Below the pieces are notes generated by a model. The model ran no database searches, was not told where the DNA came from, and saw only the letters and a list, made by a program, of their open reading frames with translations. A stretch of DNA of 64,000 bases from Pelosinus fermentans JBW45 (GTDB lineage: Bacteria; Bacillota; Negativicutes; DSM-13327): positions 2,016,501-2,080,500 of the forward strand of contig NZ_CP010978.1 in assembly GCF_000271665.2 (NCBI RefSeq), in the 5' to 3' direction. Below, in pieces: positions 29,713 to 46,145 of this stretch. The number at the start of each line of letters is the position of its first letter. The first letter of the stretch is position 1. The position numbers and the translations under genes are program-made.

Positions 29713-29871
29713 GGTTCACTTTATATGTTTTAAGAACGGCAGCGTTTTTCTTATATGGACTCTCACCAAAGTTATGATGATGACATATATTATAATACAT
29801 ATTTGGCAAAGCCTTATTGCTAGGTGCGGAGTTATGGGGATCATCAAATAAGTACAAAGGAGTTGATATTT

Positions 29872-30729
29872 ATGATTATGAATGGTGAGCCTATGCACTC
29901 ATTCGATATACAGCAGCTTAAATGGGCTCTACGCAGAGGAAAAATGGATGTATGGGAAAATGAAACTACTCCCGTTGAGAGCCAGCCTACTCCTGTTGCC
30001 GAAACTGTTAACGGTACTGGGGAAAATCCTCCTGTATGTACAACGGTTTTAGATCAGATTACTACTATGGAGAAAATGATGAATCAGCAGATCGCATTAT
30101 TTAGAAATGAATTTGCCGTTTTTATTCAAGCACAAGTGAATCAAGAAAAAGCGTTACGTCTTTCAGAAACAGAATGGCAAAAAAGACTTGTAGAACATGA
30201 AAGTAAAATGCTAGCTGAAATGTGGGAGATGAGGCAGAGTATTATTGGAGAATTTACAACCTATTTTCAACTAATAGCAGAACAATTACAGACTAGGGAT
30301 CATTTAATACATAAGGAAATATCTTTGCTTAAAGAACAGTTGATTGAGATGCATCAATACCAAGAATACCACAAAGAAGAAGATCTAGCATTGGCAAAGG
30401 AGTGGAATCAAAAGATTGAAGCATGCCAAATACAGTTAATTGATTGTATGCAGCATATACAAAGAGTATTAGAAGAAATAAATGTTGGTAGCATTGAAAA
30501 GCTGAAGCAAGAAGATTTTTTCCTTAATGAAATTGCACTTGTAAAAAGTGAATTAGCAACTTTACAGCAAGCTTATCAAGGTAAGGATGATAGGTCGATA
30601 ATTGTAGATATTGAAACTTGCAATCCTGTAACAGAGGAAACGGAGCAAATCAAGGCAGATGCTCAGCAAGAGCTCAAAAGGCAAGAAGATATGATTATAA
30701 AGAAAAAAAGAAGGCATCGGAGAGGATAA
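29872..30729 (+). CDS. Coiled-coil protein of unknown function
   Basis: I do not recognise this 285-residue protein. It has a short N-terminal segment ([18 protein letters not shown], residues 11-28), a Pro/Thr/Glu-rich linker (about 30-60), and then a long helical, Glu/Gln/Leu-rich region (about 65-265) likely to form coiled coils, ending in the basic tail KKKRRHRRG. There is no signal peptide or membrane helix. Start ATG 29872 is behind AAAGGAG. Six bases separate its stop from gmd, so it is the first gene of the glycan operon and may organise or anchor the glycosylation machinery; that role is inference. Confidence 0.6.
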
Positions 30730-30734
30730 AATTT

Positions 30735-31832
30735 ATGGGAAAAGTGGCATTGATTACAGGCATAACAGGCCAAGATGGTGGCTATCTGGCTGAGTTCCTA
30801 CTAGAGAAAGGCTATATTGTTCATGGTATAAAACGGCGTAGCTCGTTATTGAATACGGCTCGCATTAATCATTTATACCAGGATTCTCATGAGAAACATG
30901 TAAAGTTTTTTTTGCATTATGGTGATATGACAGATGCGACAAATTTGATTCGTATTATTCAGGAAGTACAGCCTGATGAGATCTATAATCTAGCCGCACA
31001 AAGTCATGTGCAGGTTTCTTTTGACACTCCAGAATATACTGCTAATGCAGATGCGTTAGGTACACTAAGGTTATTAGAAGCCTTACGTATATTGAATATG
31101 GTAGGTCGAGTTAAGCTTTATCAAGCTGCGACCAGTGAGCTATTTGGGAAAGTACAGGAAACACCTCAGAAAGAGACGACTCCCTTTTATCCTCGGAGCC
31201 CCTATGCTGTTGCCAAATTATACGCCTATTGGATTGTTGTAAATTATCGGGAAGCTTATAATATGTTTGCTTGCAATGGGATTCTGTTTAATCATGAATC
31301 ACCAATGCGCGGTGAAACTTTCGTCACTCGTAAAATCACGAGAGCCGTAGCTCAGCATAAGTTAGAAGTAGGCAATATATTATATTTAGGAAACTTGGAT
31401 GCAAAAAGGGATTGGGGTTTCGCTGGTGATTATGTAAAAGCGATGTGGCTTATGCTGCAGCAAGAAAAGGCAGAAGATTACATCATTGCGACGGGAGAGA
31501 CGCATTCGGTACGTGAATTTGTGGAACTAGCCTTTCGTGCTATTGGAGTGAATATTGAATGGCAAGGAGCAGGTATAGAAGAAAAAGGCATAGATGCAGC
31601 GAATGGAAAGACTTTGATTGAGGTAGATGCTCGTTACTTTCGTCCAACAGAAGTCGATTTGTTATTAGGTGATGCCACGAAAGCCAAAGAAAAATTAAGA
31701 TGGACTCCAGAAGTTAGTTTGATTGAAATGGTAGATATGATGGTAACGCAAGATATCAAATGGATGGAACGTGAATTATTATGCCAAAAATATGGCTTTA
31801 GCACTGAAAGTATACGGAAAGCAAAAGAATAA
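30735..31832 (+). CDS. gmd: GDP-mannose 4,6-dehydratase
   Basis: A 365-residue extended short-chain dehydrogenase converting GDP-D-mannose to GDP-4-keto-6-deoxymannose. Visible are the NAD(P) motif [14 protein letters not shown] (about 10-23), KRRSS specificity segment, AATSELFGK (catalytic Thr/Glu region, about 130) and [12 protein letters not shown] with the catalytic Tyr/Lys pair. The nucleotide-sugar region [19 protein letters not shown] (about 186-204) is typical of GMD. ATG 30735 with GGAGAGG is used; a frame extending back into the previous gene is a shadow. The fcl-like gene follows. Confidence 0.92.
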
Positions 31833-31902
31833 AAATAAAGCTCTTTTACTAGAAAATCTCTAAAGAAAATTTTCCCCATATAATTACATGTGGAGGCAGA
31901 CT

Positions 31903-32835
31903 ATGGATAAACATGCCAAAATCTATATTGCCGGCCATGGAGGTTTAGTCGGATCAGCAATTCTAGGCAAATTAAAGAAGCATTTCTATAAGAATATTAT
32001 ATTTCGTACTAGCAAGGAGCTAGACTTGCGCAATCAAGAAGCTGTGGCTACTTTTTTTGCCATTGAGCAGCCAGAGTATGTATTTATGGCTGCTGCAAAA
32101 GTAGGAGGGATATTGGCGAATGACACTTATCCAGCTACTTTTATCTACGATAATGTAATGATGCAAGCCAATATTATTAATGCTGCTTATCAAAATAAGG
32201 TCAAAAAGTTATTATTTCTGGGAAGCTCTTGTATTTATCCCAAATTAGCTCCTCAACCGATAAAAGAAGAATATTTGCTAACGGGTGAGTTAGAAGCTAC
32301 CAATGCACCTTACGCAATTGCTAAAATTGCAGGAATAACAATGTGCCAAGCGTATAATGAGCAATATGGAACAACTTTTATTTCTGTTATGCCGACGAAT
32401 CTATACGGACCTAATGATAATTTTGATTTAACATCATCTCATGTACTACCAGCGCTTATTAGAAAGTTTCATGAAGCAAAAATGAATCATCTATCCAATG
32501 TCGAAATCTGGGGTACAGGCAAGCCACGGCGGGAATTTTTGCATGTAGATGATTTAGCTGATGCATGTCTGTTTTTAATGAATCAATATCAAGATAACCA
32601 GCCGCTAAATATCGGAGTAGGTAAAGATATTTCTATTGCTGAATTGGCAACCCTAATTGCTGCAGTTGTGGGGTATTCAGGTAACATTATGTATAACACC
32701 GCGATGCCTGACGGAACTCCTCGTAAGTTATTGGACGTATCAAAATTAGCAGATCTTGGTTGGCGTCCATCAATAGAATTAGAGGATGGTATACGCCGCA
32801 CATATCAATGGTATTTAAAGAACTTAGTAATTTGA
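31903..32835 (+). CDS. fcl: GDP-L-fucose synthase-type epimerase/reductase
   Basis: A 310-residue extended SDR that normally epimerises and reduces GDP-4-keto-6-deoxymannose to GDP-L-fucose. It shows [12 protein letters not shown] (nucleotide motif), GSSCIYPK (catalytic Ser/Cys region, about 107-114), and PYAIAKIAG with the YxxxK pair (about 137). The [12 protein letters not shown] segment is also family-typical. ATG 31903 with TGGAGG is the start. With gmd it forms a two-step path to a GDP-6-deoxyhexose, most likely GDP-L-fucose. Confidence 0.9.
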
Positions 32836-32922
32836 TGATAGCAAGTTTACAGATAGTGCCGCATTAACAGAGTTTGTGTGACAATAAGCAAGATATATTC
32901 GGATAATATTAGGGGGAACTAC

Positions 32923-33789
32923 ATGTCTATTCCAATTGTTTTTATGCATTATGGCGATAGTGAATATCTGCAGTATAGTTTACTACAAGCAAAAAAATCG
33001 AATAAAGATAGCGATATTATATTAATTGGTGATGACAGCAATAACAAATATCCTTTTGTTAAACACGCTAATATAAATGATAGTCAATCTGGACAAGATT
33101 TTGCGAAAATTTATCAGCATATGAGCTTTAATTACTACGCATATGAACTATTTTGCATTCAGAGATGGTTTATGTTAAGAGATTTTATGGCTAAGCATCA
33201 GATATCCCGGTGTTATCATCAAGACTCTGATGTAATGCTGTATGAGGATATTTCAACGGAAAATGTCGCAAATTACGATTTTGCTTTCTGTGGCGGGATT
33301 TCAGGTGGGATTGCCTTTATCAACAATTTCGAAGCGTTAGATGGTTTTTGTAAATTCATTACTGCATTTTACACGGAGGAACCTCTTATGGAGGAACTAA
33401 AAAAAATATATCAAATGGTTATAAAACAAGTACCAAATGCTGGTATTTCTGACATGATATTTATTAACCTATATTGTAATACGAGACAGCATCCAGAAAA
33501 AATTTTTGATTTGTCAATTATTGAAAACAATGCTGTGTTTGATTTGAATGTAAATTTAACAAATGAATATGAACAATGGCAAGGCCGAAAAAAGATATAT
33601 TTTACGACAAAGGGAGTATTATGCAAAAATTTAGTATTAAATACGTTTATCAAATTTAAAGCGCTTCATTTTCAGGGAGAGGCAAAAATGTTTATGAAAT
33701 ACTTTGTGCAAAAAACACCTGAGGAGTGTATTATACCCGTAACTTTTGATTATTCGTCCTGCCAATGGCAGGAGGTTCATAATTTATAA
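32923..33789 (+). CDS. Putative GT-A type glycosyltransferase
   Basis: A 288-residue cytoplasmic protein. The N-terminal IPIVFMHYGDSEYLQYSL segment resembles the start of nucleotide-sugar transferases, and QDSDVMLYED (about residues 99-108) is a DxD-like metal/nucleotide-sugar motif. CGGISGGIAFIN follows, as in acceptor-side loops of GT-A enzymes. No closer family is recognised. ATG 32923 is preferred for AGGGGG. It lies between fcl and the large adenylation protein and has lower G+C than the upstream housekeeping genes. Confidence 0.65.
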   Translation: MSIPIVFMHYGDSEYLQYSLLQAKKSNKDSDIILIGDDSNNKYPFVKHANINDSQSGQDFAKIYQHMSFNYYAYELFCIQRWFMLRDFMAKHQISRCYHQDSDVMLYEDISTENVANYDFAFCGGISGGIAFINNFEALDGFCKFITAFYTEEPLMEELKKIYQMVIKQVPNAGISDMIFINLYCNTRQHPEKIFDLSIIENNAVFDLNVNLTNEYEQWQGRKKIYFTTKGVLCKNLVLNTFIKFKALHFQGEAKMFMKYFVQKTPEECIIPVTFDYSSCQWQEVHNL

Positions 33790-33824
33790 TTCAATTAATT
33801 TTAGAAAAGAGAGGTGTTTTTTTG

Positions 33825-36650
33825 ATGAAATCAGCAGTTGCTATTCAGTATGATGATGAGGAGCTAACTGGAAATATAAAAATAGTTTTAAAAAATATTC
33901 CCGAAATAACCATTGTTGATAACAGTAATTGTGAAAAAATTGCTCTGGGGGAATGTGGTAAGAAGATAAGATGGTTAAGTAATAAAATAATACGGGATTT
34001 TCCTGAGGAAAAGCATATTGGATTGATTTTTAAAACTTCCGAGGAATTAATATTACATTGGTTTGCGGTTTTGGACGCGGGGAAAGAGCCACTTATCATG
34101 CAATATCCAACTAAAAAGCAAAGTATGATTTATTGGCATAACTCCGTTAGTCACACCATTTCTTCTAGTAATATTCAGGGCGTAATATGCGAAGCAGGTA
34201 TTAAATCATTGGGTATTGAAAAATTAGTAAGAACTATTTTCTTTGAAGAAGAAATTCTCGAGGCAGATACCAGCTGTGATGAAATTATTAATGGTACGTT
34301 TATTCAGTTATCATCAGGTACTACTGGTTTTCGCAAGGGTATGAAATTTACTTTCAAAGAATTATATAGTTATATACAAAATTATAATGAAGTAATGGAT
34401 ATGAAGGAAACGGATTGCATCGTATCTTGGTTACCTTTGTATCATGATATGGGATTTATTGCTTGCTTTACGATGCCGATTTTTTTAGGTATAAAACTAG
34501 TTTTAATTGATCCGATTGTTTGGGTTACTAATCGCTCTATATTATTTAAAACAATCGCTGATTATAAAGGTACACTTTGTTTTATGCCTAACTTTGGCTT
34601 TGAAGTTATGAGTAAGGAAAACTTAGATGTTCCAATTACCACAATGAGAAAATGGGTTTCTGGTGGAGAGCCTGTTAAAAAAGATACGATGGTACGCTTT
34701 TGTGAGCATTTAGGTACTAACTTGCAATCGATATCCGTAGTTTATGGATTCGCTGAAACGATTATGGCGATATCCCAAAGCAATGGTATAAAAAGCCATG
34801 AAAAAGATGGTAGAGACGTTGTAAGTTGTGGGACGATTATTCCAGGTACTTTTATCAAAATAATTGATAATCAGATATTCGCCAAAAGTGGCTATTCTAT
34901 ACAGTGCTATCTAGATCAAATTAGTATAGTAGATGAGGACGGGTATATTGCTACTGGGGATATTGGATTTATGGAGAACGGAGAACTATATGTGGAAGGG
35001 CGCAAACATGATATTATGATTCAGGCAGGACAAAAGTTTATGCTCAATGAAATGGATACGATTCTCGCCCAAGTTGCTCCAGAGTGGGCAGGCCGAGGTG
35101 TATGTTTAGCCAAAGATGATGAAGGAACTGGAACCCAGACACTTCTAATTCTTTTAGAAAGAGCAGATATCATTGATAGCGAGCAGTATAGGGAATTGGC
35201 AAGTCGTTTAAGTCAATCATTGCCAGTGGAACATTTTGAATTATATTTTGTTCCTGACCAATTTTTAACGAAAACTTCATCAGGTAAAATTAATCGCAAA
35301 AAAACATATGAGGATTATCAGAAATTTAAAAATTGGGAGAATCTTAATAAAAGTATTGACGTGCATATGCACGATGAAATCAAGCGACATTTTCAAGGAA
35401 TACCTTTTGATTTACCAATAGCAGAGGCTTTAGATTCATTAGGTCTTATCATTTTAGACAGTATCGTGAAAAAAGGCAATATTAAGATCAATAAGTCTAT
35501 GACATTAAATGAGGTTATTGAAATGTGTATGCAAAAAAACAGGAATAAGGTTCTTTTACGTTCAGACGCAAGTAAGGTGATATCCCTTGTCTCGATGATG
35601 GATTATTCTATTATTCCTCGCTTGACTGAAGAAGATATGAGATTTATTTCAAACGCAGTGGGTATGCAGGTAGAATTTGAGCATGTTTGCATGCCGCCGG
35701 CGCCTATTGTTGCACAGGATTTAATATTTTGCGATTTTTTCCTCTGTCGTAATTATGATGAACGATATTCTTATTATTATGAGTGTGTACAAAAAATTAA
35801 GGGAGCTAGCTTGCTTCTTATGGATGATCATGCAGAATTTGCTGTAGGAGGTGCAAGCGCATTTCCTATTATGGATACAAAGTTTAAGAGAAGTGCTGTC
35901 AGTGATTATGTAGTATATCGATGGCAAAAATATGCAAAAAATCATCATTTACTACCTGTGGGGGATGTTATTCATGGTTCGTCTCTTTCACCTGCAATGC
36001 ATTTGGATGCAATAAAGAAAATCTCGGATTATTTAAATGTACCCATTTTTAAAGTAGCGGTATGTGAAAAATACAATCAGCATACTGCTGACTGGGAATA
36101 TAAGGGCTATAAATATAATTTTAATATTATATTTGAGGGTAAACCAGACTATAGTAATCATGATGATATAGTTGCTGCTTTGTGTAATTTTATAAATCAA
36201 AACAAACACAGGATAAAAACTAAGGATGTTGTTAGCGTAAATAACAGCCCTGATTATAACGATTTGTGGCATTTTTGCTCTTATGCTGTCAATCCGCTAT
36301 TTCTTGATCAAGTTATAAATCGCTTTAATAGCTTCATTATTCACGGATTTCCTTGCAGTTTGCAGTATTTACAAAGGAAATTAGAAGAACAAGGCAAGAA
36401 ATTCTGTTTTGTTCCTGCTTTAAATGCTAGTGGTGGTTTTGATCCTGCATTAGAAGAAAATTATGAGTGTATATTGCAAACAGGAAGTTGGGGAACACCT
36501 AAGACATCGTTACCTGTATTGTCACTTATGGCAGCTGGTGGACCATTGTTCGCTAATTTACCTCCTGATTTTAAGATAGACCAAAAGATACTAGATTTTT
36601 CATTTATTTCTCTTCCTGAGGATATTAAGAACTATTTAAAAAATAAGTAA
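33825..36650 (+). CDS. AMP-forming adenylation / acyl-carrier / unknown-domain fusion protein
   Basis: The 941-residue protein has three parts. Residues about 1-500 are an ANL adenylating domain: SSGTTGFRKG (P-loop, about 162-171), YGFAETIMA, ATGDIGFMENGELYVEGRKHD in pieces, and KTSSGKINR with the catalytic Lys (about 487). Residues about 505-575 look like a small carrier domain with LDSLGL (Ser about 538), the usual phosphopantetheine site. The last 360 residues (about 580-941), with GDVIHGSSLSPAMH and QTGSWGTPKTSLP, match nothing I know. It would activate an acyl or amino acid, load it on its own carrier and pass it on, plausibly to a sugar. AT-rich; start ATG 33825 with GAGAGGTG. Confidence 0.72.
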   Translation: MKSAVAIQYDDEELTGNIKIVLKNIPEITIVDNSNCEKIALGECGKKIRWLSNKIIRDFPEEKHIGLIFKTSEELILHWFAVLDAGKEPLIMQYPTKKQSMIYWHNSVSHTISSSNIQGVICEAGIKSLGIEKLVRTIFFEEEILEADTSCDEIINGTFIQLSSGTTGFRKGMKFTFKELYSYIQNYNEVMDMKETDCIVSWLPLYHDMGFIACFTMPIFLGIKLVLIDPIVWVTNRSILFKTIADYKGTLCFMPNFGFEVMSKENLDVPITTMRKWVSGGEPVKKDTMVRFCEHLGTNLQSISVVYGFAETIMAISQSNGIKSHEKDGRDVVSCGTIIPGTFIKIIDNQIFAKSGYSIQCYLDQISIVDEDGYIATGDIGFMENGELYVEGRKHDIMIQAGQKFMLNEMDTILAQVAPEWAGRGVCLAKDDEGTGTQTLLILLERADIIDSEQYRELASRLSQSLPVEHFELYFVPDQFLTKTSSGKINRKKTYEDYQKFKNWENLNKSIDVHMHDEIKRHFQGIPFDLPIAEALDSLGLIILDSIVKKGNIKINKSMTLNEVIEMCMQKNRNKVLLRSDASKVISLVSMMDYSIIPRLTEEDMRFISNAVGMQVEFEHVCMPPAPIVAQDLIFCDFFLCRNYDERYSYYYECVQKIKGASLLLMDDHAEFAVGGASAFPIMDTKFKRSAVSDYVVYRWQKYAKNHHLLPVGDVIHGSSLSPAMHLDAIKKISDYLNVPIFKVAVCEKYNQHTADWEYKGYKYNFNIIFEGKPDYSNHDDIVAALCNFINQNKHRIKTKDVVSVNNSPDYNDLWHFCSYAVNPLFLDQVINRFNSFIIHGFPCSLQYLQRKLEEQGKKFCFVPALNASGGFDPALEENYECILQTGSWGTPKTSLPVLSLMAAGGPLFANLPPDFKIDQKILDFSFISLPEDIKNYLKNK

Positions 36651-36687: not shown

Positions 36688-37653
36688 TTTTAATAGGTTT
36701 ATATCATTTAGTAACATTTCTTCGATAATTGTTGAAAATTTCGTTTTAGGCTGCCAGCCTAAATCGTTATAAATATTGGAGGCGTCACCTAAAAGAGGAA
36801 TTTGTTCTCCAGGTCTGAAAAAGTTGCTGTCGATTTCTATATATTTTGTATAGTCAAGATCTACCAATGAAAATGCAAGATCCAATAAATCACGAACTGT
36901 ATGAGGAATACCAGTGGCAATTATATAATCTCTAGGCCCATAGGGGTTATTTAGCATCAGCCACATGGCTTCCACGTATTCAGGGGCGTATCCCCAATCT
37001 CTGATGGCATCAATATTGCCCATTTGAATTCTGTCTTCACGGTTCAAGTAGATCTTAGCAGCTCCTGACGTAATTTTTCGTGAGACAAAGGCATGATTGC
37101 GGCGGGGTGATTCATGGTTATAGCAAAATCCAGTACAGGCATATAAGCCATGATGTTCACGATAGTTCTTTACCACATAATGACTGGCTAACTTTGAAAT
37201 TCCATATATGGAGCGAGGATTAAATCTTGTTGTTTCCTGTTGTGGTACAACATCAGTGTTACCAAATATTTCACTTGAACCTGCAAAATAAAATTTACAC
37301 TGTGGTACCAATTCTTTGATACTAGAAAGAAAAAAATGTGTTGGATTTAAATTGGTTTCAAGAATAGAAGCTTCATCTTCAAAAGAATAGCTAACAAAGC
37401 TGGCTGCGGCTAAATGATAACATTCATCGGGCTTTATGGCATCAATAAGTTTGTAAATTGATAAATGATTATTTAAAGAACATACATGCAGCTTTAATTG
37501 GTTAAAATCATTTTTTAAGAAGGAGAGCTTTTGCTGGTTTTGAATACTTGAAGGTCTAATTACTCCATGAACTTCATATCCTTTTTTGAGTAATAGTTCA
37601 GCTAAATAGGAACCATCTTGCCCATTAATCCCAGTAACAAGAGCTTTTCTCAT
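36685..37653 (-). CDS. Second GDP-mannose 4,6-dehydratase-like enzyme
   Basis: A 322-residue extended SDR with the GMD-type nucleotide motif TGINGQDGSYLAELL, AGSSEIFGN (about 122-130), the catalytic pair in SIYGISKLASHY and the region NHESPRRNHAFVSRKIT. It is shorter than the gmd product at 30735-31832 by some 40 residues and clearly a distant paralog rather than a recent copy. It may make the same GDP-4-keto-6-deoxymannose or act on another NDP-sugar. ATG at 37653 with GGTGGGA upstream; a longer frame reaches into the upstream glycosyltransferase gene and is not used. It shares an operon with that gene (16 bases apart). Confidence 0.82.
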   Translation of the reverse strand: MRKALVTGINGQDGSYLAELLLKKGYEVHGVIRPSSIQNQQKLSFLKNDFNQLKLHVCSLNNHLSIYKLIDAIKPDECYHLAAASFVSYSFEDEASILETNLNPTHFFLSSIKELVPQCKFYFAGSSEIFGNTDVVPQQETTRFNPRSIYGISKLASHYVVKNYREHHGLYACTGFCYNHESPRRNHAFVSRKITSGAAKIYLNREDRIQMGNIDAIRDWGYAPEYVEAMWLMLNNPYGPRDYIIATGIPHTVRDLLDLAFSLVDLDYTKYIEIDSNFFRPGEQIPLLGDASNIYNDLGWQPKTKFSTIIEEMLLNDINLLK

Positions 37654-37669
37654 TATTATCCCACCAGTT

Positions 37670-39607
37670 TTAAATAAAATTAATTTTTGCAGATGAATTT
37701 TCAATGAAATTAAGAACAGTTTGTTGCAAGTTCCCAATATGAATATCGCTTGGTAGCGGACCAAGAGATAAGTGTGTTGCTATTTGCATAGCAAGGTTCT
37801 TATAGATAGCCATTGAGTAGTTAGTAGGGTGCAATATATGATAACAGATTGGAGTTACTACTTTTTTGACAGGTACTTTGGATAAGATTGGTACTAGTGG
37901 TACCCAATAGTCCCACCACGGTAAACCGATGCATAAATTTGTAGGTGGATACATCTTAATAAGATCCCTGTCGAAAAAGAAGTAGTCGAATCCATTGTAG
38001 AAATTTCCATTCAGGTTATCTAGAGACGTAACATCTACTCTAGAACCAAAAACCATTGAGTTCATTGCTTGCGTATACATGAATAGCGGAAGATTCGCTT
38101 TTCCGAAATAAATGTCTGAATTGACAATACCGCAAATTTTACAATCTTGGGCAGTAAAATAAGAGAGAATATTATCAACATAGATATAAGGTTTTCCATA
38201 TTGTGCTCTGGCATCTCTATTTGCTGGCACAAATTCAATATAAGGAAAATGATGTTTTACCAAATTCATTTCATCTAGAGTATTAATTGAGACTACTTTA
38301 AAACCACAATGAAGCCAGCTTTCAATGCATCTCTTTTGTGTTCCAATATCCTTCGTTGCCGCTATGGAGGTAGCAATGGTTATTTGTGTAGTTGATCTAT
38401 GATGAAAATTTGGGGCTCGACTAGGTGAATTGAAGATGTGTTGAGCATCTTCTACAAGTTCAGATAACTGGTAATTAAAATTCTCTATTTTCTCCTTGTA
38501 GAACATCTGGGCTTTTATTTCCTCTGAGCTGCTGGGACCAGGAGTGGATACTGGCAGTAAATCGGAGATTTTTCTGGCTAAATCAATTGCATCAGCGCGC
38601 GCAAAATAGATTCCAAAGTTTTGCTCCTGATGTATGGCTAGGTCTGAGAGGATAATCTTTTTGCCTAATAGCTGACATTCTTGTGCAGTTAGGTTTAAAC
38701 CTTCAAATAGGGATGGATGAACGACAAAGAGGCTGCGACGCATTAGCTGTATTTGATCCTGACGTGGTATCAATCCAAGAATATGAATAAGGTCAGCTAT
38801 ATTTAGATCACTAATGTATTTTTGTAGTCCAATAAAATAATCAGGGTTACGATAATCAAATGTTGAACCAGTACATACAAGATGTACATCTTGGCCTGAT
38901 TGACGCAAAATAGCTATGGCTTTAAATAGCGTTGCATGATTTTTATGAATCCAAAACTGATTTGAACATAAGATAAATTTATCAGGCAGATTATATTTAA
39001 ATTGAGTTTGATAGGCATCCCCGGTGAACCATTCTTGTTTGGGGTGTACGGGAATGGGTAATACTTTCGCTTTAGCAGTAGAAGAAGGATAAAACTGTAA
39101 AAAATCTTTTTTTACATCGTTGCTGGTGAAAATGACCAGAGGTGTATTATCAGCAATTTTTTTAAATTTAGCGTTGCGGTTTTGAATATCCGCAGGTGTA
39201 AAAAGCTGGGGAAGATAATGGTGCTGAAAATCAGGTATCCATGGAATGCCGGGTTTGCCGAGATATAGATCTGAATTGATTGGCAACAGTATATCTATAT
39301 TTTGGAATAAGTCATTAATGGAAGCATAATGGGCAAATGGATATTGAATCAACATTTGTGCAGTGGTTAAGTTCTCGCCCACAAAGATTAGACCGTCGGT
39401 TAGCGGGATAAGGTGTTCATGTAAAGGCAGAAGGTCATAAGAAGCCAAGTACGGCAAATTCTCATCTGTAATAACTAGGAATAGTTTGGGACGCTCTTCT
39501 TTGGGGATTTGTATGACAGAATGGATAATGGAATCTACTATTGTAACACCTGCATACCAGTATTTACTTCCGATAAGAGGTAGTCCTATACGTGTATTTT
39601 TAAGCAT
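37670..39607 (-). CDS. GT4-type glycosyltransferase fused to a C-terminal unknown domain
   Basis: A 645-residue protein. Residues about 1-380 are a GT-B glycosyltransferase: SNQFWIHKNHATLFKAI (about 217-233), VCTGS and the donor-binding HPSLFEGLNLTAQE (about 297-310). From about residue 405 a second domain begins with ITIATSIAATKDI and contains DARAQYGKPYIYVDN, CGIVNSDI, FDYFFFD and GLPWWDYW; it is clearly homologous to the whole product of the divergent gene 39773-40606. The donor and acceptor are unknown. It starts at 39607 after GAGGAG and is the first gene of a two-gene minus-strand operon. Confidence 0.8.
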   Translation of the reverse strand: MLKNTRIGLPLIGSKYWYAGVTIVDSIIHSVIQIPKEERPKLFLVITDENLPYLASYDLLPLHEHLIPLTDGLIFVGENLTTAQMLIQYPFAHYASINDLFQNIDILLPINSDLYLGKPGIPWIPDFQHHYLPQLFTPADIQNRNAKFKKIADNTPLVIFTSNDVKKDFLQFYPSSTAKAKVLPIPVHPKQEWFTGDAYQTQFKYNLPDKFILCSNQFWIHKNHATLFKAIAILRQSGQDVHLVCTGSTFDYRNPDYFIGLQKYISDLNIADLIHILGLIPRQDQIQLMRRSLFVVHPSLFEGLNLTAQECQLLGKKIILSDLAIHQEQNFGIYFARADAIDLARKISDLLPVSTPGPSSSEEIKAQMFYKEKIENFNYQLSELVEDAQHIFNSPSRAPNFHHRSTTQITIATSIAATKDIGTQKRCIESWLHCGFKVVSINTLDEMNLVKHHFPYIEFVPANRDARAQYGKPYIYVDNILSYFTAQDCKICGIVNSDIYFGKANLPLFMYTQAMNSMVFGSRVDVTSLDNLNGNFYNGFDYFFFDRDLIKMYPPTNLCIGLPWWDYWVPLVPILSKVPVKKVVTPICYHILHPTNYSMAIYKNLAMQIATHLSLGPLPSDIHIGNLQQTVLNFIENSSAKINFI

Positions 39608-39772: not shown

Positions 39773-40606
39773 ATGATTCAGAAGATAACGATTGCTACGT
39801 CATTAGCACCAGGTAAAGAGATTGATATCCAAAGAGAAGCTGTTTGTAGTTGGCAAAAAATTGGATTCACAGTGATATCAGTGAATTGCGAAGAGGAAAT
39901 CACCATATTAAAACCTCAATTTCCTACAATTGAATTTGTTCGAGTTTTAAAAGATGCCAGAAAACAATATGGTAAGCCTTATGTTTATTTTGATGACATA
40001 ATGACCGTTTTATTGAAACAGGACTGTAAGGTTTGTGGAATTGTCAATTCAGATATTCAATTAGTGAAAGCAGAGTTATATTCTTTACTTTTAAAAGAGG
40101 CTGTAGGTTCTTTGATTTATGGGTCTCGTACGGATGTGGAAAACCTTACGTGTACAGGAGGTGAAGTAGTGGAAGAAGGGTTTGATTATTTTTTCTTTGA
40201 TAAGTCGGTTATTGCAACTTACCCCCCATCTGCATTTTGTCTTGGTCTGCCATGTTGGGATTATTGGGCAATACTGGCGCCTTTATTTTCAGGTATACCT
40301 GTAAATAAAGTTATGACACCTCATGCTTACCACATAAAGCATAAGGTTAATTGGAATAATGAAATCTCTAATCAATTATTCCATTATTTATTATTGCGAC
40401 ATATTAGGCCACTTTCTATTGAGGCTGCTTCACCTTACTATATACTGGAATTTATCGAACGATACTCGAGGAAATTAACATTATATGATGAGAATTATGA
40501 TAAAGAAACAAGACAAAAATTGGTATCCCAGATTAAAGACGTAATCATCAAAGGTGAGATACAAGGAAGAATTATTGATAAATTACTGTTTTTCAAGATG
40601 ATGTAG
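39773..40606 (+). CDS. Free-standing copy of the glycosyltransferase-associated domain
   Basis: A 277-residue protein whose residues 1-220 align by eye with the C-terminal domain of the divergent 645-residue glycosyltransferase: ITIATS, DARKQYGKPYVYFDD, QDCKVCGIVNSDIQ, EGFDYFFFD, CLGLPCWDYW. The NSDI motif could act like a DxD in a GT-A fold, so this may itself be a glycosyltransferase domain; that is inference. No membrane helix. RBS AGGAGGG precedes ATG 39773. Its last 60 residues are helical and lack a counterpart in the fused version. Confidence 0.65.
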   Translation: MIQKITIATSLAPGKEIDIQREAVCSWQKIGFTVISVNCEEEITILKPQFPTIEFVRVLKDARKQYGKPYVYFDDIMTVLLKQDCKVCGIVNSDIQLVKAELYSLLLKEAVGSLIYGSRTDVENLTCTGGEVVEEGFDYFFFDKSVIATYPPSAFCLGLPCWDYWAILAPLFSGIPVNKVMTPHAYHIKHKVNWNNEISNQLFHYLLLRHIRPLSIEAASPYYILEFIERYSRKLTLYDENYDKETRQKLVSQIKDVIIKGEIQGRIIDKLLFFKMM

Positions 40607-45386: not shown

Positions 45387-46145
45387 TTAGCCTTGAGGAC
45401 AAATATCAGTACAAGGACCAATTTGATGGCTGCTGTCAAAAGAACCTTTTACTGTAAAGGAAGAGAATCCATTAGCGATTGCTTGGTCAGATAATTCAAA
45501 CGGCCTGATCCCTTCTATCCACAAGTTTTCGCTTCTCCACAACTTATCAATAATTTTTCCTGAAATAGTAATTTGTTGAGGAGTCGTTACAACAGCGTTA
45601 AATTGGGCTACAAGGCAGGAACCATCAATTCTTGTTAATTCATTCTTTAATTGCTGCCCAGTTACTGGTATGCAATCTGGGAATCCATAGAAAGTAGTAA
45701 AGGTTTTAGTAAAGGTTGGGAGTGGAAGAATGATTGGGTTTGTGGTGCAATTGCCGCAGATGAGTACCAATCCAATTCTGACTGTTATACTCTGGCAGCC
45801 TTCATCAATTTGTTCATCAGCGCACCATAGAATAACCTGGCAAGTTTCACCTACTGTAAGTGTTGGGAAATTGAAGGTTCCATTGCATTTTACACGGCAT
45901 GGTCCTACTGGAGGGTAGGCTATGCATTTCGTAAATTCACCAGAATTGCCAATAAGTACGACTTCCTCAACACAAATATCATGGCATTCACATGTTGGTA
46001 TCCTGCTTACTGGGGTAGTTGTAGTACCAAAAACGGGTCCGCAGTTGTTAAAGATACTAAGACAGCTATTGCAGGGGCAGTTTGGCTCACATTGACGGGT
46101 CAATTCACAAAAATCAGGAATCTCAAAATACTTGCTGTCTATCAT
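45387..46145 (-). CDS. Cysteine-rich protein, possibly a spore-surface protein
   Basis: A 252-residue protein with 21 cysteines. The N-terminal 60 residues hold clusters (CEPNCPCNSC, CECHDIC); later Cys are spaced across beta-rich segments with many Thr/Ile/Pro. There is no signal peptide or membrane helix, so it is not a simple secreted protein. High Cys content without export signal is typical of spore coat or exosporium proteins made in the mother cell, and the organism carries sporulation genes, but I cannot name a family. AAAGGAGG precedes ATG 46145. No clear sigma-E/K promoter was found upstream. Confidence 0.6.
   Translation of the reverse strand: MIDSKYFEIPDFCELTRQCEPNCPCNSCLSIFNNCGPVFGTTTTPVSRIPTCECHDICVEEVVLIGNSGEFTKCIAYPPVGPCRVKCNGTFNFPTLTVGETCQVILWCADEQIDEGCQSITVRIGLVLICGNCTTNPIILPLPTFTKTFTTFYGFPDCIPVTGQQLKNELTRIDGSCLVAQFNAVVTTPQQITISGKIIDKLWRSENLWIEGIRPFELSDQAIANGFSSFTVKGSFDSSHQIGPCTDICPQG

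Follow-up and report, generated by a model that had tools for sequence, protein, structure and literature searches.

The 64,000-nucleotide stretch of Pelosinus fermentans JBW45 analyzed here (NZ_CP010978.1, forward-strand positions 2,016,501 to 2,080,500; hereafter the window) belongs to a genome of 5.38 Mb. Among genes for sugar nucleotides and glycosyltransferases it carries a ligase gene whose 941-residue product joins an ANL ligase to a carrier-like domain and to a C-terminal domain of no known family (Table 1). The program-made open reading frame (ORF) begins at a TTG at position 33822, and the coordinates used here are those of the ATG-started frame. Seven orthologous ORFs of 920–1244 residues were found, and all eight members, the window included, keep the same order of ANL, carrier, and C-terminal parts. 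The gene is under purifying selection, with dN/dS values of 0.09–0.41 across the three parts in two comparisons, in the second of which dS was saturated (1.1–2.3). A preliminary description, made from the letters of the window, had proposed a ligase with its own carrier motif, a phosphopantetheine serine at about residue 538, and a C-terminal domain that could not be placed. That observation is confirmed, and the interpretation attached to it is partly supported.

Table 1 Features of the ligase gene and its surroundings, in window coordinates
Feature	Position	Strand	Basis
Ligase gene, 941 aa: FAAL-like (fatty acyl-adenylate ligase) ANL ligase, carrier-like domain, orphan C-terminal domain	33825..36650	+	ORF translation, orthologues
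Probable ribosome-binding site AGAGGTG, 8 nt before ATG	33810..33816	+	read directly
Adenylation (ANL) domain, residues 1–505, FAAL-like but compact	33825..35339	+	profile, PDB-sequence matches, motifs
SSGTTG, residues 163–168	34311..34328	+	motif read
KTSSGK, residues 483–488	35271..35288	+	motif read
Carrier-like domain, residues 508–582	35346..35570	+	motif, context; no PF00550 match
Ser538 codon, predicted phosphopantetheine site (LDSLG)	35436..35438	+	motif; predicted helix starts here
Orphan C-terminal domain, residues 585–941 (357 residues)	35577..36647	+	no family; low-confidence models
p301, no Pfam or NCBIfam family	29824..30726	+	before gmd in six genomes; 47% identical relative in the slot of G005, a genome of the genus without the ligase gene
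gmd, GDP-mannose 4,6-dehydratase	30735..31829	+	PF16363, E 9.5e-154
fcl, probable GDP-L-fucose synthase (NAD-dependent epimerase/dehydratase family; exact name inferred)	31888..32832	+	PF01370, E 5.7e-66
GT303, putative glycosyltransferase directly upstream of the ligase gene	32878..33786	+	GT-A-like by eye, no Pfam match
gmd2, second gmd-like epimerase/dehydratase	36688..37764	-	PF16363, E 4.5e-103
GT645, GT4-type glycosyltransferase with additional C-terminal domain	37673..39607	-	PF00534
GT4 and GT41 (O-GlcNAc-transferase-like) fusion, 1068 aa	41620..44823	+	PF00534, PF13844

Adenylation and carrier-like domains

The ANL part matches PF00501 (E 1.4e-27; 96.9 bits against a cut-off of 29.9) and has five core motifs, starting at residues 163 (SSGTTG), 307 (YGFAE), 377 (TGDIGF), 392 (GRKHD), and 483 (KTSSGK), each of which is kept in eight of eight orthologues. 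We take SSGTTG to be the phosphate loop, and KTSSGK presumably holds the catalytic lysine expected of the ANL C-subdomain. Among the best 25 of 80 NCBIfam models the top four are fatty acyl ligases and the fifth is PRK05691, a model of nonribosomal peptide synthetases (NRPS) and polyketide synthases (PKS); none of the 25 reached its cut-off, which limits the FAAL assignment. The top five places of the PDB search go, by molecule name, to three entries called ‘polyketide synthase’, one saframycin-synthetase entry, and one fatty acyl-adenylate ligase, and we take the PKS and saframycin-synthetase entries to be FAAL-type domains. The likeness to FAALs (PDB 7r7g, 3kxw, 3pbk; NCBIfam PRK09192) covers the core motifs and the SWLPxYHDMG and PNF regions, and a ligase of this kind would be expected to feed a carrier.

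A candidate for that carrier follows directly on the same chain. The motif LDSLGL begins at residue 536, which places its serine at Ser538, and LDS[LM]G is present in all eight orthologues with D, S, and G invariant, in a part whose identity to the window otherwise stays at 29–38% in six of the seven comparisons. The second of two AlphaFold models, with ten-residue blocks at 62–75 pLDDT in this part, has helices at residues 515–522, 532–535, 538–550, and 561–574, one of them starting exactly at Ser538. We predict with fair confidence that residues 508–582 are a divergent carrier.

The orphan C-terminal domain

No credible match to the C-terminal domain was obtained in Pfam, NCBIfam, or PDB sequences, where single-sequence and profile searches alike returned chance-level hits. 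In Pfam and NCBIfam, by sequence, it matched no condensation, thioesterase, or reductase domain of an NRPS module and no other known polyketide or peptide synthetase domain, so its description as unplaced is left standing. We considered that it might be the remnant of a second ANL domain or a copy of a neighbor, and rejected this because hhalign gave probabilities of at most 1.4% when the domain was compared with eleven neighboring families and with the ANL and carrier parts. Residues invariant in the eight-sequence alignment include H36, C38, D48, D53, C57, R58, D84, E87, H123, H232, C234, H256, and C298 (domain numbering).

Both AlphaFold models have low confidence over this domain (mean pLDDT 41.1 and 42.7) and were built on shallow alignments, consisting of the window and four close sequences that are 65–68% identical over the domain. 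Each nevertheless predicts a helix-strand-helix-strand-helix-strand succession at residues 824–886, which is a generic alpha/beta (Rossmann-like) unit. A Foldseek search of the PDB with both models gave no match at E 0.001. In the VIA fold search, one model had a Dph2 chain first (Z 9.1, root-mean-square deviation 2.9, 90 aligned residues, covering residues 819–910 only), and the other had parts of helicases or remodellers at Z 6.4 and below. Because these lists conflict and both models are of low quality, we draw nothing from them beyond the alpha/beta unit near 824–886.

Distribution

The three-part protein is present in seven of the eight genomes of the genus and in one genome of another family in the class (G020). 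Genome-sampling searches for the C-terminal domain, which covered the phylum of the host, found it in 8 of 60 relatives and 8 of 300 class genomes, the same eight each time; the single positive among 398 phylum genomes was the host genome itself. It was found in none of 82 genomes of another class of the phylum, an empty result that carries no weight. A two-pattern scan of genome contigs, which may omit records near the window and misses relatives lacking the patterns, gave 97 matching stretches, four of which were confirmed, all from Pelosinus. Searches of viral contigs, plasmids, and phages detected no relative of the domain, and no publication on the protein was found in the open-access literature by titles and abstract openings.

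A profile of the C-terminal half matched 15 of 250 class genomes at E 0.05, and the matches in seven further genomes (E 0.0008–0.046) were treated as chance. By eye, four of these resemble a FIST/GGDEF protein, a pair of CoaX-type kinases, and an ABC binding protein, and the remaining three lie in frames of 28–54 residues. The G020 orthologue has about 300 extra C-terminal residues (L015:11043-11963) that are weakly tetratricopeptide-repeat-like (E 0.0043, short of the family cut-off).

A possibly variable glycan locus

Glycan genes surround the ligase gene in all eight loci. Six genomes, including that of the window, share one slot in the order proA, p301, gmd, fcl, GT303, ligase gene, gmd2 (reverse), and GT645 (reverse), although in one of them the contig end cuts proA and GT645. 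The other two loci are arranged differently. In G006, fcl and gmd lie about 3–5 kb from the ligase gene, which has a PF13524 glycosyltransferase on each side. In G020 the gene stands directly after WbqC and before PIG-L, and about 3 kb or less separates it from NeuB and a DegT aminotransferase. Among the 14 window genes compared, none apart from the ligase gene and gmd is found at every one of the eight loci.

G005, the genus genome without the ligase gene, keeps proA, a relative of p301, and HlyD (81%), followed by ABC genes recognized by eye. At the position of the ligase gene (L086:2514-12578) it has instead five collagen-like ORFs (52–164 GXX repeats) after p301, with a glycosyltransferase-like ORF beyond. 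Neither the window nor the seven other ligase loci contain an ORF with eight or more consecutive GXX. Given the collagen-like ORFs of G005, the position seems to be a slot whose surface glycoprotein and glycan genes vary.

Proposed acylation of a surface sugar

We hypothesize that a single polypeptide activates an acid, loads it in cis, and attaches the acyl group to a surface sugar, a tentative reading that we regard as plausible rather than probable. The ANL domain would activate a carboxylic acid, likely an acyl acid given its FAAL relatives, as acyl-AMP, and would then move the acyl group to the phosphopantetheine arm that the protein's own carrier domain is predicted to bear at Ser538. 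From there the C-terminal domain may pass the group on; the acceptor would be an amino or hydroxyl group, either on a nucleotide sugar or on a growing, probably fucose-containing, glycan supplied by the neighboring genes. Pelosinus is a spore former, and the outcome would be a surface glycoconjugate, possibly of the spore surface or an appendage, with an acyl-decorated sugar. In favor of this proposal we count the nearness of the ANL domain to FAALs and the constancy, across the eight members, of Ser538, the domain order, and the glycan surroundings, together with the precedents for its design and setting given below.

The preliminary description had likewise suggested that one polypeptide acylates or aminoacylates a sugar or polymer. 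This stands as the most economical reading rather than a demonstrated one, and the two chemistries are not on an equal footing: because the ANL domain has fatty acyl ligases as its closest relatives, acylation is the likelier of the two. The description had also held such chemistry to be unusual for glycan loci, a view that the precedents contradict. According to excerpts of two papers, flagellin glycosylation islands of Aeromonas and enterobacteria contain genes for acyl carrier proteins (ACP), AMP-dependent synthetases or CoA ligases, LuxE, and LuxC (PMC7874193, PMC4875605). As in the window, acyl activation and carriers there lie within clusters of sugar-nucleotide and glycosyltransferase genes; the difference is that the functions are on separate genes, and the window protein shows no match to a LuxE domain. 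G007, also of the genus, has a LuxE gene with adjacent LuxC-like and ANL-like genes (L039, contig C11; the latter two by eye), a trio that resembles the acyl genes of the flagellin islands and that we count with them as a precedent for the setting.

A precedent for the design comes from fusions of a carrier, a FAAL, and a PlsC-type acyltransferase on Burkholderiales plasmids, one of 939 aa from Cupriavidus (L088:5479-8295) and one of 947 aa from Paraburkholderia (L090:5278-8118). They likewise combine activation, carrier, and a third domain on a chain of similar length, but their carrier is N-terminal and their third domain is recognizably PlsC-type (PF01553), which nothing in the window protein matches. 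We also count a pair of genes in G015, where a distant relative of the ANL domain (31% identical over residues 116–494; 26% over 491 columns) stands beside an MBOAT-like gene. There the transferase is a separate membrane protein (by eye), and the ANL protein has no fused carrier match or C-terminal domain. This locus (L087:5161-9763), in which the related ANL gene is followed by MBOAT-like and DltD/AlgX-like genes (by eye), may be a further site where a surface polymer is acylated. The last parallel is anthrose, which, according to PMC6222408 and PMC10050317, bears an acylamido group and decorates BclA, a collagen-like spore protein of Bacillus anthracis. It resembles the proposed product as an acylamido deoxysugar on a spore surface glycan, and G005 has its collagen-like ORFs at the ligase slot. 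To our knowledge, no ANL-carrier fusion is known from the anthrose operon. Within the searches made, the combination of ANL and carrier with an orphan third domain is novel, and the compactness of the ANL domain is also unusual.

Evidence against the proposal and alternative explanations

Several results weigh against this proposal. The stretch from YGFAE to TGD (A5–A7) in the ANL domain measures 70 residues in eight of eight orthologues. Four related ANL proteins have 104, 105, 106, and 124 residues there, so that the window protein is 34–54 residues shorter (a fifth relative, L089, gave no TGD match). The longest of these belongs to a separate FAAL-carrier protein of the same genome, to which the window ANL is just 26% identical over residues 42–318. 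A passage of PMC4667280 describes, for FadD32, an insertion motif of FAALs, set between the N-terminal subdomains B and C. Such an insertion should fall in the A5–A7 stretch, and judged by the length of this stretch, it is probably reduced or absent in the window ANL. This weakens the case for a fatty-acyl substrate and lends something to the idea that the domain loads an amino or hydroxy acid and that the protein aminoacylates a sugar or polymer in the manner of an NRPS module or DltA. The fifth place of PRK05691 agrees with that idea, as does the presence of amino-acid adenylation and D-alanine ligase chains in the PDB search. These chains, however, rank below the FAAL-type ones, which, with the PKS and saframycin-synthetase entries counted among them, take the five best places; fatty acyl ligases also fill the top four NCBIfam places; and the amino-acid adenylation model TIGR01733 reaches 55.2 bits against a cut-off of 317.4. 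We therefore consider aminoacylation quite unlikely, and an acyl substrate likelier than an aminoacyl one.

For the carrier, PF00550 (PP-binding) was reported for none of the eight members at E up to 10, in a scan whose HMMER filters drop most matches weaker than about E 0.1. A PDB profile search of this part placed an acyl carrier protein first, at a non-significant E of 0.47, and hhalign against five carriers of the same genome gave 0.8% probability, both profiles being shallow. Nor was a carrier protein among the Foldseek and VIA matches listed for the second model, which includes the carrier stretch; by its own caveat, the VIA listing can be filled by one domain. With no PF00550 match, the name carrier rests on motif and context, and the LDSLG stretch might not be a working carrier at all, in which case the ANL domain would hand its product directly to the C-terminal domain. 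The invariance of D, S, and G within a fast-changing stretch and the predicted helix starting at Ser538 make this very unlikely in our view.

The transfer step faces the difficulty that the C-terminal domain showed neither a family, a motif, nor a fold of acyltransferases (Pfam, NCBIfam, PDB sequences, and a check for HX4D). HX4D is the motif of PlsC-type acyltransferases; PF01553 gave no profile match, and HX4D neither occurs in the final 370 residues of the window protein nor is common to all orthologues at any position. LuxE (PF04443) was not matched in the domain by Pfam, nor in the host genome at E 0.001. It is thus conceivable that ANL and carrier load an acyl group which the C-terminal domain modifies on the carrier, for instance by reduction, dehydration, or hydroxylation, or for which it just docks a partner, while a separate transferase finishes the reaction. 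Consistent with this are the alpha/beta unit predicted in both models and, in the excerpts on the glycosylation islands, the pairing of ANL and ACP genes with the reductase LuxC and with LuxE. The domain nevertheless matches no nucleotide-cofactor family in Pfam or NCBIfam, there is no acyltransferase among the scanned window neighbors, and of the 14 window genes compared none but gmd accompanies the ligase gene in all eight loci. We regard this division of labor as unlikely. As to the acceptor, no aminotransferase or other amino-sugar gene occurs among the eleven window neighbors scanned with Pfam, so an N-acyl acceptor is not evident.

The ligase gene could also belong to a lipid or secondary-metabolite pathway and stand among glycan genes by chance. 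The host genome does abound in carriers of NRPS/PKS type, with 66 PP-binding matches, and has the FAAL-carrier protein elsewhere. Six genomes, however, keep the gene between the fcl-GT303 pair and gmd2, and the two divergent copies also stand in glycan loci, which renders a chance location highly improbable. The gene has 34.3% GC against a mean of 39.8% (standard deviation 3.0) for the 43 window ORFs of at least 200 aa, and its AT-richness had been read in the preliminary description as a hint of transfer. That hint does not survive: four nearby genes are similarly low (GT303 31.7, p277 33.9, gmd2 34.9, and GT645 36.7%), others are not (gmd 39.8, fcl 37.8, and p307 38.6%), and since six genomes keep the gene in one slot, its AT content is no sign of recent transfer.

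Returning to acylation in cis, a bolder form of this proposal is that the C-terminal domain founds a new enzyme family that takes the carrier-bound acyl group in cis to a nucleotide sugar or glycan, making the protein a single-chain sugar acylase, with activation, loading, and transfer combined, that varies a glycan of the spore or cell surface in Pelosinus and one relative. We consider this possible but doubtful. If the domain does transfer the acyl group, the protein would be a self-contained tool for sugar acylation, would give a first function to a 357-residue domain without a family, and would offer a genetic handle on surface-glycan variation in Negativicutes.

Other features of the locus

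Further along the window, the GT4-GT41 fusion suggests protein O-glycosylation. A 277-aa protein without a Pfam family (p277, 39773-40603) is about 42–52% identical to part of the 645-aa GT4 protein. A 252-aa cysteine-rich protein (45387-46145, reverse strand), which has no Pfam match and is 89% identical in G004, is possibly a structural protein of the spore or cell surface.

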